A stretch of 48,319 nt of DNA from Specibacter cremeus (GTDB lineage: Bacteria; Actinomycetota; Actinomycetes; Actinomycetales; Micrococcaceae). Position numbers and translations under genes: made by a program. A model generated the notes under the pieces. It did no database searches. It had not been told where the DNA came from and saw only the letters and a program-made list of their open reading frames with translations. Where the stretch lies: NCBI RefSeq assembly GCF_003946885.1, contig NZ_RWKQ01000034.1, positions 239 to 48,557 of the forward strand, written 5' to 3'. This document shows positions 7,710 through 28,013 of this stretch, one piece after another; within the stretch, counting starts at the first letter, position 1, and the number at the start of each line of letters is the position of its first letter.

Positions 7710-10700
7710 TTGCATTTGAAGAGTCTGACCGTGCGCGGGTTCAAGTCCTTCGCCTCGGCCACAACCTTCGACTTTGAACCCGGCGTGACGGCGGTCGTGG
7801 GCCCGAACGGGTCGGGCAAGTCCAATGTGGTGGACGCGCTGGCCTGGGTCATGGGCGAACAGGGCGCCAAGACGCTGCGCGGCGGCAAGATGGAGGACGT
7901 CATCTTCGCCGGCACGGCGGGCCGCCCGCCGCTGGGCCGCGCCCAGGTGTCGCTGACCATAGACAACACCGACGGCGCGCTGCCGATCGAATACTCCGAG
8001 GTCACCATTTCGCGGACCCTGTTCCGCACGGGCGGCTCCGAATACGCCATCAACGGCACCGGCTGCCGGCTGCTGGACATCCAGGAGCTGCTCTCCGATT
8101 CGGGGCTGGGCCGGGAGATGCACGTGATCGTCGGCCAGGGCCAGCTCGACAAGGTCCTGCACGCCACGCCCGAGGACCGGCGCGGGTTCATCGAGGAGGC
8201 GGCCGGCATTCTCAAGCACCGCCGGCGCAAGGAAAAGACGCTGCGCAAGCTGGACGCCATGGGTGCCAACCTGGCCCGGCTGACGGACCTGACCACGGAG
8301 ATCCGCCGCCAGCTCACGCCGCTGGGCAAGCAGGCCGAGGTGGCCCGGCGGGCGCAGACCGTGCAATTCGACGTGCGGGACGCCCGGGCCCGGCTGCTCG
8401 CCGACGACATCGTCCAACTCACCACGGCCGCGGCCCAGGACACGGCCGCCGAGGAGGCCATGAAGGCCCGCCGGGCGGAGGTCGAGGAACTGCTGCGGGC
8501 GGGGAGGGAACGCCAGGCCGAGCTGGAACGCCTCGGCGCCGCCGCCACCCCGGCCCTGAACGCGGTCCGCGACACGTGGTACCGGCTCTCCGCCGTGAAG
8601 GAACGCTTCGCCGCGCTGGCGCAGCTGGCCGCCGAACGCCAACGCCACCTGGGCGCGGCGGAGCCCGCCCCGGACCCCAGTCGCGACCCCGACAAGCTGG
8701 CCCGCCAGGCCCGGCAGGTCCGGGACGAGGAGGCGGAGCTGGAGCTGGCCCTGGAGGAACGCCGGATCGGCCTGGAGACGGCGCTCGAACTCAAACAGGA
8801 CGCCGAGGCGGCCGTGCGCGAAGAGGAACAGCGTGTCACGGCCCTGCTGCGTGCCACGGCCGACCGTCGCGAGGGGCTGGCCAGGCTGGCCGGCACGGTC
8901 GCCTCGGCCCGCTCCCGGGTCGAGGCCGCCGAGGCGGAGATTGGCCGGCTCCGTGGGTCCATGTCCGCCGGGACGGACCGCCGCCGGGTCGCCGCCGAGG
9001 AGTTCGCCACACTCGAGGCGCAGGTGGCCGGTGTGGAGGAGGGGGAGGAATGCCTCGACGCCGATTACGAACAGGCCGCCGCCGCGCTCGCCGTCCTGGA
9101 CGCAGAACTCGAGCAACTGACCACAGCCCAGCGCACGGCCGAGCGGGAACGCGACGCCCTGGTGGCCCGCCGCGACGCGCTCGCCGTGGGACTGCGCCGC
9201 AAGGACGGCTCGGCCCACCTGCTCTCGGCCGGGCTGGACGGTGTGCTCAGCGCCGTCGCCGACCTGCTTGCCGTCGAGGCCGGGCATGAGACGGCCATCG
9301 CCGCTGCGCTGGGCGCCGCCGCCGAGGGCGTTGCCGTCAGCGGGGCCAGCGCGGCCGTCGATGCGCTGGAACTGGTTAAGAAGGACGACGGCGGCCGCGT
9401 CACCCTGGTCGTCGCCGGCCCCCCCTCCCAACTGGTGGACAGTAGCTGCACGAAATCCGCGGATTCCGAGCAGCTACTGTCCACTCGATTGGCGGTGGGG
9501 GAGGCCGTGCGCGCCGTGGCGGGCGCCGCCGTCGGACGTGCCGTGGTGACGTGCCCGCCCGAGCTGGCCGACGCCGTCGACGCCCTGCTGCACGACGTGG
9601 TGCTGGTGCCGGACTTGGCCGCGGCGGCCGAGGCGGTGGCCGCGTATCCGGGGTTGACCGTCGTCACGGCCGCCGGCGACGTGCTGACCGCGCATGCCGT
9701 GCACGGCGGGTCGGCCGGGGCGCCGTCATTGCTGGAATTGCAAGCCGACGTGGACCAGACCGAGGCCGACCTGGCGTCCGTGACGGCGGAGGGGGAACGG
9801 CTGCGGTTTACGCTGGCCGCCGTGCAGGCCCGGCGGCAGGAGGCGGCGGCCGCCCAGGCCGCCGCGCTGGAGGCGCTGAACGATTCCGACGCCCGGCTGG
9901 CGGCCGTGACGGAGCGGTTGGGGCATCTGGGCTCCGTGCTGCGGTCGGCGTCGGGGGAGTCGGAACGGTACGAGGCGTCGCTGGCGGCGGCCACCGAGAA
10001 CCGCGACCGGGAGCAGGCCGCGCTGGCCGAGGCGGCCGACCGGTTGGCCGCCGCGCGGCAGGCCCCGGCCGACGCCGAGCCGTCCATGGAGGGCCGGGAC
10101 GCGCTGGCCGCCCAGGCCAGCGCGACGCGGGCCGTGGAGATGGAGGCCCGGCTGGCGCTGCGCAGCGGCGAGGAGCAGCTGACGTCGATGCGCAACCGTG
10201 CGGCCGGGCTGGAACGCGCGGCCGCCGTGGAGCGGGCGGCGCGGGAACAGGCAGCGGCGCGGGCCCGGCGTCGTCGGTACCAGGGCGCCAAGGCCGCGTC
10301 CGTTGCCGCGGCCGTGGAGGTCATGCTGGCGCGGATTGCGGCGTCGATTTCGATGGCCGCCGAGGAACGGGACACCGCCGAGGAACTGCGGGCGGAACGG
10401 GACGCCGAGTTGTCCGGGATCCGTGTGGCCAACGCGGCCCTCGACACGGAGCTGGCCGCGTTGACGGATTCCGTGCACCGGGACGAGCTGGCCCGGGCGG
10501 CCCAACGTCTGCGGATCGAGGCCTTGGAAAACAAGGCCATCGAGGAGCTCGGGCTGACCGTGGACCATCTGCTGGCCGACTACGGGCCGGACACGCTGGT
10601 GCCGCCGGGTCCGGGGGAGGCCACGGACAAGTGGGCGGCGCTGCGTGTCGAGGTCGACGCCGACGGGTCGCCGGTGCGCGACGGCGTGCCGTTTGTGCGG

Positions 10701-11354
10701 GCCGAGCAGGAGAAGCGGCTCAAGCGGGCCGAGAAGGACCTGGCCGCGCTGGGCCGGGTGAACCCGCTGGCGCTGGAGGAGTTCGCGGCGCTCGAGGAAC
10801 GGCACCAATTCCTGGCCGGCCAGCTGGAGGACCTGAAGAACTCGCGCAAGGACCTGATGGACATCATCAAGGAGGTCGATGCGCGCGTGCAGGAGGTGTT
10901 CTCCGCCGCGTTCGCGGACACGGCCGTGCACTTCGAGCGCGTGTTCGGCCGGCTGTTCCCGGGCGGGGAGGGCCGGCTGGTGCTGACCGACCCCTCCGAC
11001 ATGCTGACCACGGGCATCGAGGTCGAGGCGCGGCCGGCCGGGAAGAAGATCAAGCGGCTCTCGCTGCTCTCCGGCGGGGAGCGCTCGCTGACGGCCGTGG
11101 CACTGCTGGTGGCCATTTTCAAGGCCCGGCCGTCCCCGTTCTATGTCATGGACGAGGTCGAGGCCGCGCTGGACGACACCAACCTGGGCCGGCTCATCAC
11201 GATCTTCGAGGAGCTGCGGGAGTCCAGCCAGCTCATCATCATCACGCACCAGAAGCGCACCATGGAGGTCGCCGACGCCCTGTACGGCGTCACCATGCGC
11301 GGCGACGGCGTCTCGACGGTGATCAGCCAGCGGCTTGAGCCCGCCGCGCGGTGA
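7710..11354 (+). CDS. smc: Chromosome segregation ATPase SMC
   Basis: A 1214-residue structural-maintenance-of-chromosomes protein, the core of the condensin that compacts and segregates the chromosome with ScpA/ScpB. The N-terminal head has Walker A GPNGSGKS (31-38). Long Ala/Glu/Arg-rich coiled coils flank a hinge at about residues 505-660. The C-terminal head has the ABC signature LSGGERS and the Walker B region YVMDEVEAALDD. The start is TTG, placed by the adjacent CAGGAG. Two oddities: residues 576-592 in the hinge are encoded by a 50-base nested palindrome, and the stop codon lies inside a GGTGATTGAGC repeat. Normal smc neighbours such as rnc and mutM are not upstream; the ole operon is there instead. 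ftsY follows after an inserted MFS gene. Confidence 0.97.
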   Translation: MHLKSLTVRGFKSFASATTFDFEPGVTAVVGPNGSGKSNVVDALAWVMGEQGAKTLRGGKMEDVIFAGTAGRPPLGRAQVSLTIDNTDGALPIEYSEVTISRTLFRTGGSEYAINGTGCRLLDIQELLSDSGLGREMHVIVGQGQLDKVLHATPEDRRGFIEEAAGILKHRRRKEKTLRKLDAMGANLARLTDLTTEIRRQLTPLGKQAEVARRAQTVQFDVRDARARLLADDIVQLTTAAAQDTAAEEAMKARRAEVEELLRAGRERQAELERLGAAATPALNAVRDTWYRLSAVKERFAALAQLAAERQRHLGAAEPAPDPSRDPDKLARQARQVRDEEAELELALEERRIGLETALELKQDAEAAVREEEQRVTALLRATADRREGLARLAGTVASARSRVEAAEAEIGRLRGSMSAGTDRRRVAAEEFATLEAQVAGVEEGEECLDADYEQAAAALAVLDAELEQLTTAQRTAERERDALVARRDALAVGLRRKDGSAHLLSAGLDGVLSAVADLLAVEAGHETAIAAALGAAAEGVAVSGASAAVDALELVKKDDGGRVTLVVAGPPSQLVDSSCTKSADSEQLLSTRLAVGEAVRAVAGAAVGRAVVTCPPELADAVDALLHDVVLVPDLAAAAEAVAAYPGLTVVTAAGDVLTAHAVHGGSAGAPSLLELQADVDQTEADLASVTAEGERLRFTLAAVQARRQEAAAAQAAALEALNDSDARLAAVTERLGHLGSVLRSASGESERYEASLAAATENRDREQAALAEAADRLAAARQAPADAEPSMEGRDALAAQASATRAVEMEARLALRSGEEQLTSMRNRAAGLERAAAVERAAREQAAARARRRRYQGAKAASVAAAVEVMLARIAASISMAAEERDTAEELRAERDAELSGIRVANAALDTELAALTDSVHRDELARAAQRLRIEALENKAIEELGLTVDHLLADYGPDTLVPPGPGEATDKWAALRVEVDADGSPVRDGVPFVRAEQEKRLKRAEKDLAALGRVNPLALEEFAALEERHQFLAGQLEDLKNSRKDLMDIIKEVDARVQEVFSAAFADTAVHFERVFGRLFPGGEGRLVLTDPSDMLTTGIEVEARPAGKKIKRLSLLSGGERSLTAVALLVAIFKARPSPFYVMDEVEAALDDTNLGRLITIFEELRESSQLIIITHQKRTMEVADALYGVTMRGDGVSTVISQRLEPAAR
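9435..9484. repeat. Nested palindromic element inside the SMC hinge coding region
   Basis: Perfect 15-base arms GTGGACAGTAGCTGC (9435-9449) and GCAGCTACTGTCCAC (9470-9484) enclose a 20-base loop that itself holds the perfect palindrome AATCCGCGGATT (9454-9465). It is in frame and encodes SMC residues 576-592 (VDSSCTKSADSEQLLST). The arm resembles CAGCTACTGCCCA in the repeat-rich gap near 27990. Confidence 0.8.
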
Positions 11355-12727: not shown

Positions 12728-12787
12728 AAGTAGGGCGCACTTGCGCACCATTCCGGGCCCGAATCGGTGCGCAACTGCGCCCTACTT
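12728..12787. repeat. Large inverted repeat between the MFS gene and ftsY
   Basis: 22-base arms (12728-12749 and 12766-12787) match at 21 of 22 positions. Each contains GTAGGGCGCA, and the centre ATTCCGGGCCCGAAT is itself nearly palindromic. The element lies between two divergent starts, 20 bases upstream of the putative ftsY -10. It is too far from any gene end to be an obvious terminator and resembles a REP-type element. Confidence 0.8.
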
Positions 12788-14111: not shown

Positions 14112-14256
14112 CGTCAATCCAGTGAGCAGATCACGCCGTTCTGGAGGTCGTCCGTCAATCCAGTGAGCAGATCACGCCGGAATTCCCCGCCCGGAACGTC
14201 GTCATCTGCGCACTCAATGGGGGCGTGGGCACCAGAGCGTCCCGATCTGCACACTC
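14112..14256. repeat. Intergenic cluster of four AGTGNGCAGAT motifs, two in each direction
   Basis: Two identical 27-base direct repeats (14112-14138 and 14153-14179) each contain CAGTGAGCAGATCACG. Downstream, ATCTGCGCACTC (14204-14215) and ATCTGCACACTC (14245-14256) carry the same motif on the other strand, so copies 2 and 3 form an inverted pair around CCGGAATTCC. The cluster fills most of the 322-base gap between ftsY and the DUF559 gene. Confidence 0.8.
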
Positions 14257-14347: not shown

Positions 14348-15358
14348 ATGCGATCACCAAGTCCCCTCCCGCACAGTCTGCGCGGGCGACCGTTCACGCT
14401 CACGGATTCCGATGCGCTGGGCATTTCCCGTCGGCGAACGCGGGCTGGTGACTTGCGCGCCCCCAGCAGGAGGATTCGCGTTCCCAGGGGCGTGCGGATG
14501 GCGATGCTGGACCGGTGCCGGCCCTACACCCAGGTGACCGTCGACGGCGTCGTCAGCCATGTGACGGCGGCCCAGATCCACGGGCTGGTCCTGCCGAACA
14601 GGTTGGCAGGCCGACCGGTCATTGACCTGGCCCGTCCCCGGGGGAAGAGCAATGTGCGTCGACGGCACGTCGTCGGGCACCGGCTGGAATTGGGTGAAGG
14701 TGAGGTGGTCCTGGTGGCCGGCGTGCCGGTGACATCCGTTGCGCGCACGTGGCTCGACCTGGCCTCCGTGCTCGGCCTGGACGACCTGGTGGCCATGGGA
14801 GACCAGATCGTCAACGAGCACCACCGGAACTTCGGCCCACGCAAGGTGGCCCTGGTCCCACTTGCCAAACTGCAGGAATATGTCGCGTCCAAGCGCTGCG
14901 TCAGGGGGATCGCCAAGGCACGTGCGGCGCTGGCCCTGGTCCGGGTGGGCGTTGACTCACCCCGGGAAACACGGGTCCGGCTGATGCTGCAACGGGCGGG
15001 ATTGCCGGAATTCGTCCCCGACCATCCGATCCGCAACGAACGGGGCGAACCGGATGTCTGGCCCGACCTGGCCTGCGACGAGTTCCGGACGTGCGTGGAA
15101 TACGAGGGCATGCACCACCTCACGGTTGGACAGCAGGCCTCCGACCATGACCGTGACTTCCGGACCCGGCAACTGGGCTGGCACCAGGCGCGGATCAACG
15201 ACGACGACATGCGGGCCGGCTCCGCCGTGGTGGTGGCCAAGGTGGCGCGCATGCTGGTGCGCGGCGGCTGGCCGGACCCGAACAGCGTGGACCCGAACAA
15301 CACTGACCCGAACGGCACTGCCGGGCGCGTAGCGCGCCGGAAACGGGCGGGCGTGTAA
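14348..15358 (+). CDS. DUF559/Vsr-like endonuclease-fold protein of unknown role
   Basis: A 336-residue protein of a type scattered through actinobacterial genomes. The N-terminal part (about 20-180) resembles the AbiEi-like antitoxin or winged-helix proteins (TSVARTWLDLASVLGLDDLVAMGD). The C-terminal part (about 205-310) resembles the Vsr/DUF559 nuclease fold, with RLMLQRAGLPE, EPDVWPDLACDEFRTCVEYEGMHH and late DHDRDFRTRQLGW. An acidic pair followed by ExxxxH is consistent with a restriction-like metal site, but activity is unproven. ATG 14348 follows AGAGGA directly and lies six bases after a -10-like GCTAAT, so it may be leaderless; GTG 14333 is an alternative. It is a single gene between ftsY and amtB, downstream of a repeat cluster, and may be a later insertion. 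Confidence 0.72.
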   Translation: MRSPSPLPHSLRGRPFTLTDSDALGISRRRTRAGDLRAPSRRIRVPRGVRMAMLDRCRPYTQVTVDGVVSHVTAAQIHGLVLPNRLAGRPVIDLARPRGKSNVRRRHVVGHRLELGEGEVVLVAGVPVTSVARTWLDLASVLGLDDLVAMGDQIVNEHHRNFGPRKVALVPLAKLQEYVASKRCVRGIAKARAALALVRVGVDSPRETRVRLMLQRAGLPEFVPDHPIRNERGEPDVWPDLACDEFRTCVEYEGMHHLTVGQQASDHDRDFRTRQLGWHQARINDDDMRAGSAVVVAKVARMLVRGGWPDPNSVDPNNTDPNGTAGRVARRKRAGV

Positions 15359-27887: not shown

Positions 27888-28013
27888 GCGAACCAGTGGA
27901 CTGCAAACGCTCGTTTGCGAACCAGTGGGCGGTAAGTGCTCGTTTCGGGCCGATTTTCGACATCTGCTGTCCAGTAGTTTGCGTCATCGACAGCTACTGC
28001 CCAGCAGTTGCGT
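27888..28013. repeat. Repeat cluster in the 415-base gap before the GNAT gene
   Basis: Two adjacent imperfect 29-base copies (27888-27916 and 27917-27945) each begin GCGAACCAGTGG and end GCTCGTTT. They are followed by two diverged copies of CTGYCCAGYAGTT (around 27967-27980 and 27994-28007), the second preceded by CGACAGCTA. The rest of the gap (27780-28194) is non-coding as far as I can see. CAGCTACTGCCCA here is close to the arm of the palindrome inside smc. Confidence 0.7.

Follow-up and report, generated by a model that had tools for sequence, protein, structure and literature searches.

On balance, we consider it somewhat more likely than not that the linker in the hinge of the SMC protein described here derives from the in-frame insertion of a palindromic non-coding repeat, and that this repeat belongs to a REP-like family mobilised by its own AbiEi/DUF559-type nuclease. 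Copies of the repeat are dispersed over the assembly and lie mostly at the 3' ends of genes; one of them is situated within smc, and palindromes of this kind bracket nuclease genes, with the types of nuclease and palindrome paired one-to-one. REP-like palindromes are common in bacteria, and a large class of them is described in a review as being without a known transposase. A nuclease that pairs in this way with types of palindrome would be a mobiliser open to testing. If true, the proposal would also assign a function to a very common uncharacterised gene family of actinobacteria, and would provide a clear case of mobile DNA incorporated in an essential chromosome-organising protein.

The palindrome in the smc gene

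The window (the whole analysed stretch of 48,319 nucleotides from Specibacter cremeus) contains an smc gene whose closest named relatives are from Arthrobacter. Its features are given below; R1 is the covariance model of the element described in the next section.

7710..11354, + strand: smc (chromosome partition ATPase), 1214 codons, TTG start, SMC_N match at E 2.2e-70
9426..9492, + strand: copy of the dispersed element, in frame in smc, encoding SMC residues ~573-595; R1 match of 74.6 bits, E 3.2e-16, the copy itself being among the 21 sequences used for building R1
9435..9449, + strand: left perfect arm, 15 nt
9454..9465, + strand: inner 12-nt palindrome AATCCGCGGATT, within the loop
9470..9484, + strand: right perfect arm, 15 nt

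The earlier note on this DNA had described perfect 15-base arms with a second 12-base palindrome in their loop, encoding residues 576-592 in frame. The arms, the inner palindrome (in a loop of 20 nt) and the position in the 1214-codon open reading frame are all as described, and the site lies inside the SMC_hinge domain (residues 510-641, E 2.1e-16 in a profile search). The palindrome stands, but the length of 50 bases assigned to the element falls short, as the R1 match spans about 67 bp (9426-9492). The predicted RNA fold of the element has an energy of -40.8 kcal/mol (z -6.5), and the segment is low in GC3: 18 of the 25 codons from 9426 end in G or C, a value as low being found in 6 of 1189 smc windows. 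Taken alone, the palindrome is only moderately unusual and is weak evidence (perfect arms of at least 15 nt appear in 2 of 300 synonymous-codon shuffles of smc); it is the homology of the element elsewhere in the assembly that decides that it is real.

The element encodes nearly all of the 26 residues that make up the linker at this site in the SMC studied here. In relatives the linker at the same site is hypervariable, ranging from 3 to 25 residues in 56 actinobacterial sequences and from 5 to 41 in 29 relatives from the genome search, so that a clean indel of 15-17 residues against close relatives, which the earlier note had expected, cannot be demonstrated. None of the relatives carries the same residues; those encoded by the element are private to the SMC of this genome. 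With R1, 31 SMC loci from relatives gave no match, and a hairpin scan (score at least 14) of 29 SMC loci taken with further flanks, which overlap the set tested with R1, found none. Within the hinge part of 80 SMC loci there was one GC-rich hairpin, in Kineosporia (L144), which as read appears unrelated in sequence to the element in smc. The smc copy had no match in the plasmid collection.

An AlphaFold model of the hinge (57 sequences), which matched SMC hinges among the solved structures (best 5h69, E 4.7e-10), has a mean pLDDT of 92, dropping to 60 over residues 573-582, and a helix at residues 584-601 that starts inside the element. The low confidence over the left half and the helix from residue 584 suggest that SMC would tolerate the insertion in the form of a flexible linker followed by a lengthened helix. 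The proposed surface loop therefore agrees with the hypervariable linker and with the left half of the element, but not with its right half, which is predicted to extend the helix. In-frame REPs in DNA-maintenance genes have already been described (PMC3733652), so that the insertion in smc adds a further example to a phenomenon already on record.

A dispersed family at the 3' ends of genes

A query of 121 bases from the SMC region matched 22 distinct places of the assembly by BLAST, including the window (36 strand matches, the best foreign one at E 1.9e-15). R1, for which 21 of these 22 places were used and which is biased towards this assembly (G000), gave 85 strand matches at E <= 0.01, corresponding to at least 44 distinct places, a lower bound with 150 of 1441 candidates scored. 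The other genomic copies that had been supposed thus exist, at least 43 of them by R1, and the resemblance of the arm to a repeat cluster near 27990 is borne out by a match in the window.

27917..27983, + strand: second copy of the element, composite, more diverged, intergenic; R1 match of 38 bits, E 3.2e-6; grouped with the smc copy in the cluster of 26

Clustering of the 44 copies yields groups of 26 (the smc copy included), 11, 4, 2 and 1. The arms are about 23-30 bp long, and the ends of the element read CCCAACTG and CAGTTGGG. In the alignment of 21 sequences, pairing with changes on both sides was found in 34 cells, with 0 of 500 shuffles as high; the count of pairs changed on both sides is not above that of the shuffles (275 of 500). 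No known RNA family was found in the window by Rfam at gathering thresholds, and a pattern scan of other genome contigs for the element, a set possibly lacking near records, returned nothing. Composite versions with several hairpins occur at 27917-27983 of the window and on contigs C8, C12, C24 and C34; they are reminiscent of BIMEs.

According to gene calls from our home-made codon-likelihood gene caller, the smc copy is the only one of the 44 located inside a gene, the other 43 being intergenic or lying over gene ends. These comprise 24 copies between convergent genes, 13 between tandem and 3 between divergent ones, and 3 without a neighbour on one side; for 33 of the 43, a stop codon is no more than 30 nt away. 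The convergent share, 24 of the 40 copies with both neighbours called, compares with 36 convergent junctions among 235 in 400 kb of relatives (Fisher 1e-8); within the window, 3 of 39 junctions are convergent. In relatives, 11 of the 20 copies examined are convergent, and in Tsukamurella tyrosinosolvens all three inspected copies adjoin the 3' end of an annotated gene. As read from the sequence, some copies overlap stop codons and seem to supply them.

Nuclease genes enclosed by the palindromes

Palindrome pairs about 1 kb apart on contigs C26 and C10 enclose genes that are 67% identical to each other. The products of the bracketed genes are about 310 aa long, their N-terminus being AbiEi-like and their C-terminus DUF559/Vsr-like. 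The N-terminal domain is similar to that of the AbiEi antitoxins of type IV toxin-antitoxin systems (PADLOC profiles, E 1.1e-14 for P0002 and 4.3e-10 for P0003, the C26 and C10 nucleases), but here it is fused to a DUF559-like nuclease part. The assignment of the latter comes from scores below curated cut-offs: for DUF559 (PF04480, gathering score 20.6) P0002 has 15.3, P0003 17.1 and a paralogue in the window 16.6; REase_MTES_1575 matches the C-terminal part of P0002 and P0003 weakly, below its cut-off; and for Vsr (TIGR00632) P0003 has 14.4 bits against a cut-off of 97.85, with no match for P0002. In an alignment of 20 family members, DUF559 was matched in all 20 (best 4.8e-6) and MTES_1575 in 18, both at E <= 0.1. 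The likeness to Vsr/DUF559 is also seen in the residues invariant in this alignment, E207, D240, YxG, H257, Q262 and D266, which we take to be typical of such nucleases and to have a catalytic role, and in a match to the endonuclease-like protein 3hrl (E 0.0066) in a profile search of solved structures; a difference is that the genes here are bracketed by palindromes.

Two further features of the window belong to this family or to its flanks.

14348..15358, + strand: distant nuclease paralogue, 33% identical to P0002; AbiEi E 3.1e-10; DUF559 E 0.007, below cut-off
12728..12787, + strand: palindrome with hairpin score 19, sharing a 23-score stretch (12728-12750; similarity 23.0) with the left flank of the broken C4 nuclease locus

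No bracketing palindrome pair was seen around the window paralogue, and its AlphaFold model, made for it alone, was discarded (pLDDT 34). Upstream of it lies an iteron-like array, composed of two copies of GTCAATCCAGTGAGCAGATCACGCCG (14113-14138 and 14154-14179) followed by inverted GATCTGCNCACT variants. No AbiEii toxin gene was named among the neighbours with a named product at three annotated loci, and no nuclease relatives were confirmed in viral contigs.

The genome has 10 nuclease matches at 9 loci, 8 of which were examined (C42 was left out). Six of the eight (C26, C10, C4, C20, C7 and C39) are bracketed on both sides, each with its own palindrome type; the nuclease fragment on C23 has no bracketing palindromes. 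Each flank of the broken C4 locus resembles a copy on C55 (27.0 and 24.5), with a score below 20 against each other. For the C10 unit, examined through its NicO neighbour, synteny is not conserved and hence no empty site is comparable. A gene of about 310 aa between two C8 copies is, by reading, an unrelated one, so that not every palindrome pair holds a nuclease. The nuclease copy at the broken C4 locus (L330, contig C4:57200-62400) is split, with a stop codon and about 1.5 kb of other DNA inside it, and is still bracketed by palindromes.

Across the genus, flanks matching at a score of at least 20 were found at 23 of 30 nuclease loci versus 0 of 226 control genes, and 21 of 28 loci match at a score of at least 18 when the two discovery loci are excluded. 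In other genera of the order the corresponding numbers are 10 of 28 loci, one further locus having been dropped as too short, versus 3 of 313 control genes taken from 400 kb of those genomes. Flanks matching at score 20 are absent from 7 of the 30 genus loci and from 18 of the 28 order loci. Hairpins on both flanks (score at least 14) were present at 6 of the 15 close loci of the genus and at 4 of the 15 more distant ones versus 4 of 230 controls, and at 7 of 28 loci of the order versus 2 of 318. Loci of near-identical species are not independent in any of these counts. The best of the order controls (27.5; L360:12242-13270), although blindly chosen, is an AbiEi-family gene (E 1.5e-12, no Pfam match), and the bracketing system may therefore extend beyond DUF559-type proteins. 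The other two controls with matching flanks are, by reading, cysteine synthase-like and ThuA-like.

A strict palindrome test was passed by 12 of the 35 matching pairs (score at least 18). The other pairs consist of palindromes with imperfections or of short repeats in inverted arrays, which are found mostly in a nuclease lineage of 33-40% identity. At ten loci of the distant nuclease lineage (L229-L231, L233, L239-L241, L247, L248 and L298) there are inverted short-repeat arrays such as GACGCTCNCTCAC and no single long palindromes. In the plasmid collection, where six records matched, all five loci examined have matching flanks; the locus in NZ_CP012477.1 nearly coincides in coordinates with a G006 locus and may be identical to it. 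In Tsukamurella tyrosinosolvens (L343, NZ_LR134464.1) purC and purB are separated by a DUF559 gene with palindromes on either side.

Pairing of nuclease and palindrome types

The flanks of the C26 nuclease fall in the cluster of 26, which is that of the smc copy, and the flanks of the C10 nuclease in the cluster of 11. All seven flanking palindromes that were searched, directly or by their model, are dispersed. The G005 palindrome, beside a nuclease of 39% identity, occurs in 4 of 23 genomes (11 places in G005, 15 in G019, 3 in G008 and 2 in G009), and in each of the four one copy adjoins a nuclease gene. The G006 palindrome has 17 places in G006 and is present in six other genomes; that of G070, from another family, has 9 places in G070, 4 in G128 and none in two others. 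The Tsukamurella palindromes occupy 12 and 20 places, solely in Tsukamurella records, and the StoSoilB13 palindrome at least 40, both strands counted.

Similarity of the nucleases and similarity of the palindromes are correlated over 29 loci (Spearman 0.32; 0 of 2000 Mantel permutations as high). Among the 93 pairs whose nucleases have a similarity of at least 0.6, 12 reach a palindrome similarity of at least 15; among the 313 pairs with less similar nucleases, none does. The number of R1 matches per genome of the genus tends to be higher with a close nuclease (Mann-Whitney 0.006; 0.011 without G000). That the nuclease is present exactly where palindromes abound was rejected in favour of a tendency, R1 being biased to this assembly and exceptions existing: G018, G013, G014 and G011 have palindromes without a close nuclease (19, 11, 6 and 6 strand matches), and G002 has a truncated nuclease and no palindromes.

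Discussion

The bracketing AbiEi/DUF559-type nuclease is the best candidate for the mover of the palindromes. It would recognise its own palindrome type and cut or nick the DNA there, and this cutting would lead to solitary palindromes and the bracketed gene being copied or moved; insertions would persist where they are harmless, that is, after stop codons and, once, in the permissive SMC linker. In a comparison with MITEs, whose terminal inverted repeats match a full transposon of the genome, the unit of palindrome, nuclease and palindrome could be that full element. As to the mobile palindromic element in an essential gene that had been suspected at the outset, the dispersed copies agree with it, and its movement, like binding and cutting by the nuclease and the time of the insertion in smc, is something we infer from these patterns. 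The broader proposal, to which we give even chances, is that actinomycetes possess a widespread second REP system, independent of HUH enzymes, in which AbiEi-DUF559 nucleases mobilise the palindromes that bracket them, with a separate palindrome for each nuclease lineage, and that one such palindrome now forms part of the SMC hinge.

Another transposase might move the palindromes, the nuclease being carried along as cargo, or as a defence gene, through recombination between existing palindromes. Copies do occur in genomes without a close nuclease, the search covered PF01797 alone among transposases, and the AbiEi profiles come from a defence library; nevertheless, we find this explanation unlikely, since palindrome types are specific to nuclease lineages and diverge jointly with them, which random capture would not yield. 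We give still less credit to the flanks being operators or terminators of an autoregulated AbiEi-like gene, with the dispersed copies forming a regulon or serving as 3'-end processing signals under selection. AbiEi proteins bind inverted repeats, the antitoxins doing so in their own promoter (PMC7319586), and both the position of the copies close to 3' ends and the covarying base pairs (34 cells, 0 of 500 shuffles as high) would fit such a role, but the palindromes stand on both sides of the gene, number dozens of copies and differ between species, and within smc regulation or termination makes little sense.

The position after stop codons would likewise suit ordinary intrinsic terminators, alike through common base composition; this is very improbable given a 67 bp sequence common to unrelated loci, a type for each nuclease and a copy within an open reading frame. 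That the smc palindrome arose by chance in a low-complexity linker has a negligible probability: 15-nt arms do arise in 2 of 300 synonymous shuffles, but the 67-bp homology to 43 other places, seen in the BLAST of the SMC region against the assembly and in the R1 matches, rules it out.

Mobilisation by the paired nuclease can be compared with known systems. In systems of REPs and RAYT transposases (REPtrons), PMC3733652 describes the REPs as dispersed palindromes close to the 3' ends of convergent or tandem genes, which bracket a nuclease gene and sometimes supply stop codons or lie within DNA-maintenance genes. The family studied here is similar in its dispersed extragenic palindromes near gene 3' ends (at least 44 places; 33 of 43 no farther than 30 nt from a stop) and in bracketing the gene of a predicted DNA-cutting enzyme, albeit of a different class. 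REPs have short stems of 5-13 bp and are tagged at one end with GTAG or CGTC (Table 1 of PMC3733652), in contrast to arms of about 23-30 bp and the ends CCCAACTG and CAGTTGGG here. A further difference is the AbiEi/DUF559-like bracketed gene in place of a Y1/HUH transposase: PF01797 has no match in this genome and is present in 2 of 23 genomes of the genus, and a RAYT/Y1 mobiliser in this genome was ruled out.

No report linking DUF559/AbiEi nucleases to dispersed palindromes was found in the literature covered, which excludes most subscription journals. REP counts for Arthrobacter livingstonensis are given in PMC12306157, the passages covered naming no enzyme. CGTC-tagged REPs are, according to PMC3733652, without a known dedicated transposase; they resemble our family as palindromic repeats and differ from it in that a nuclease is linked here. 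Rickettsia palindromic elements, as that source also describes, are inserted in frame in protein genes and translated. The smc copy is similar as an in-frame insertion in a conserved protein gene with predicted translation; unlike them, the family has 1 of 44 copies in a gene, and a candidate associated gene exists.
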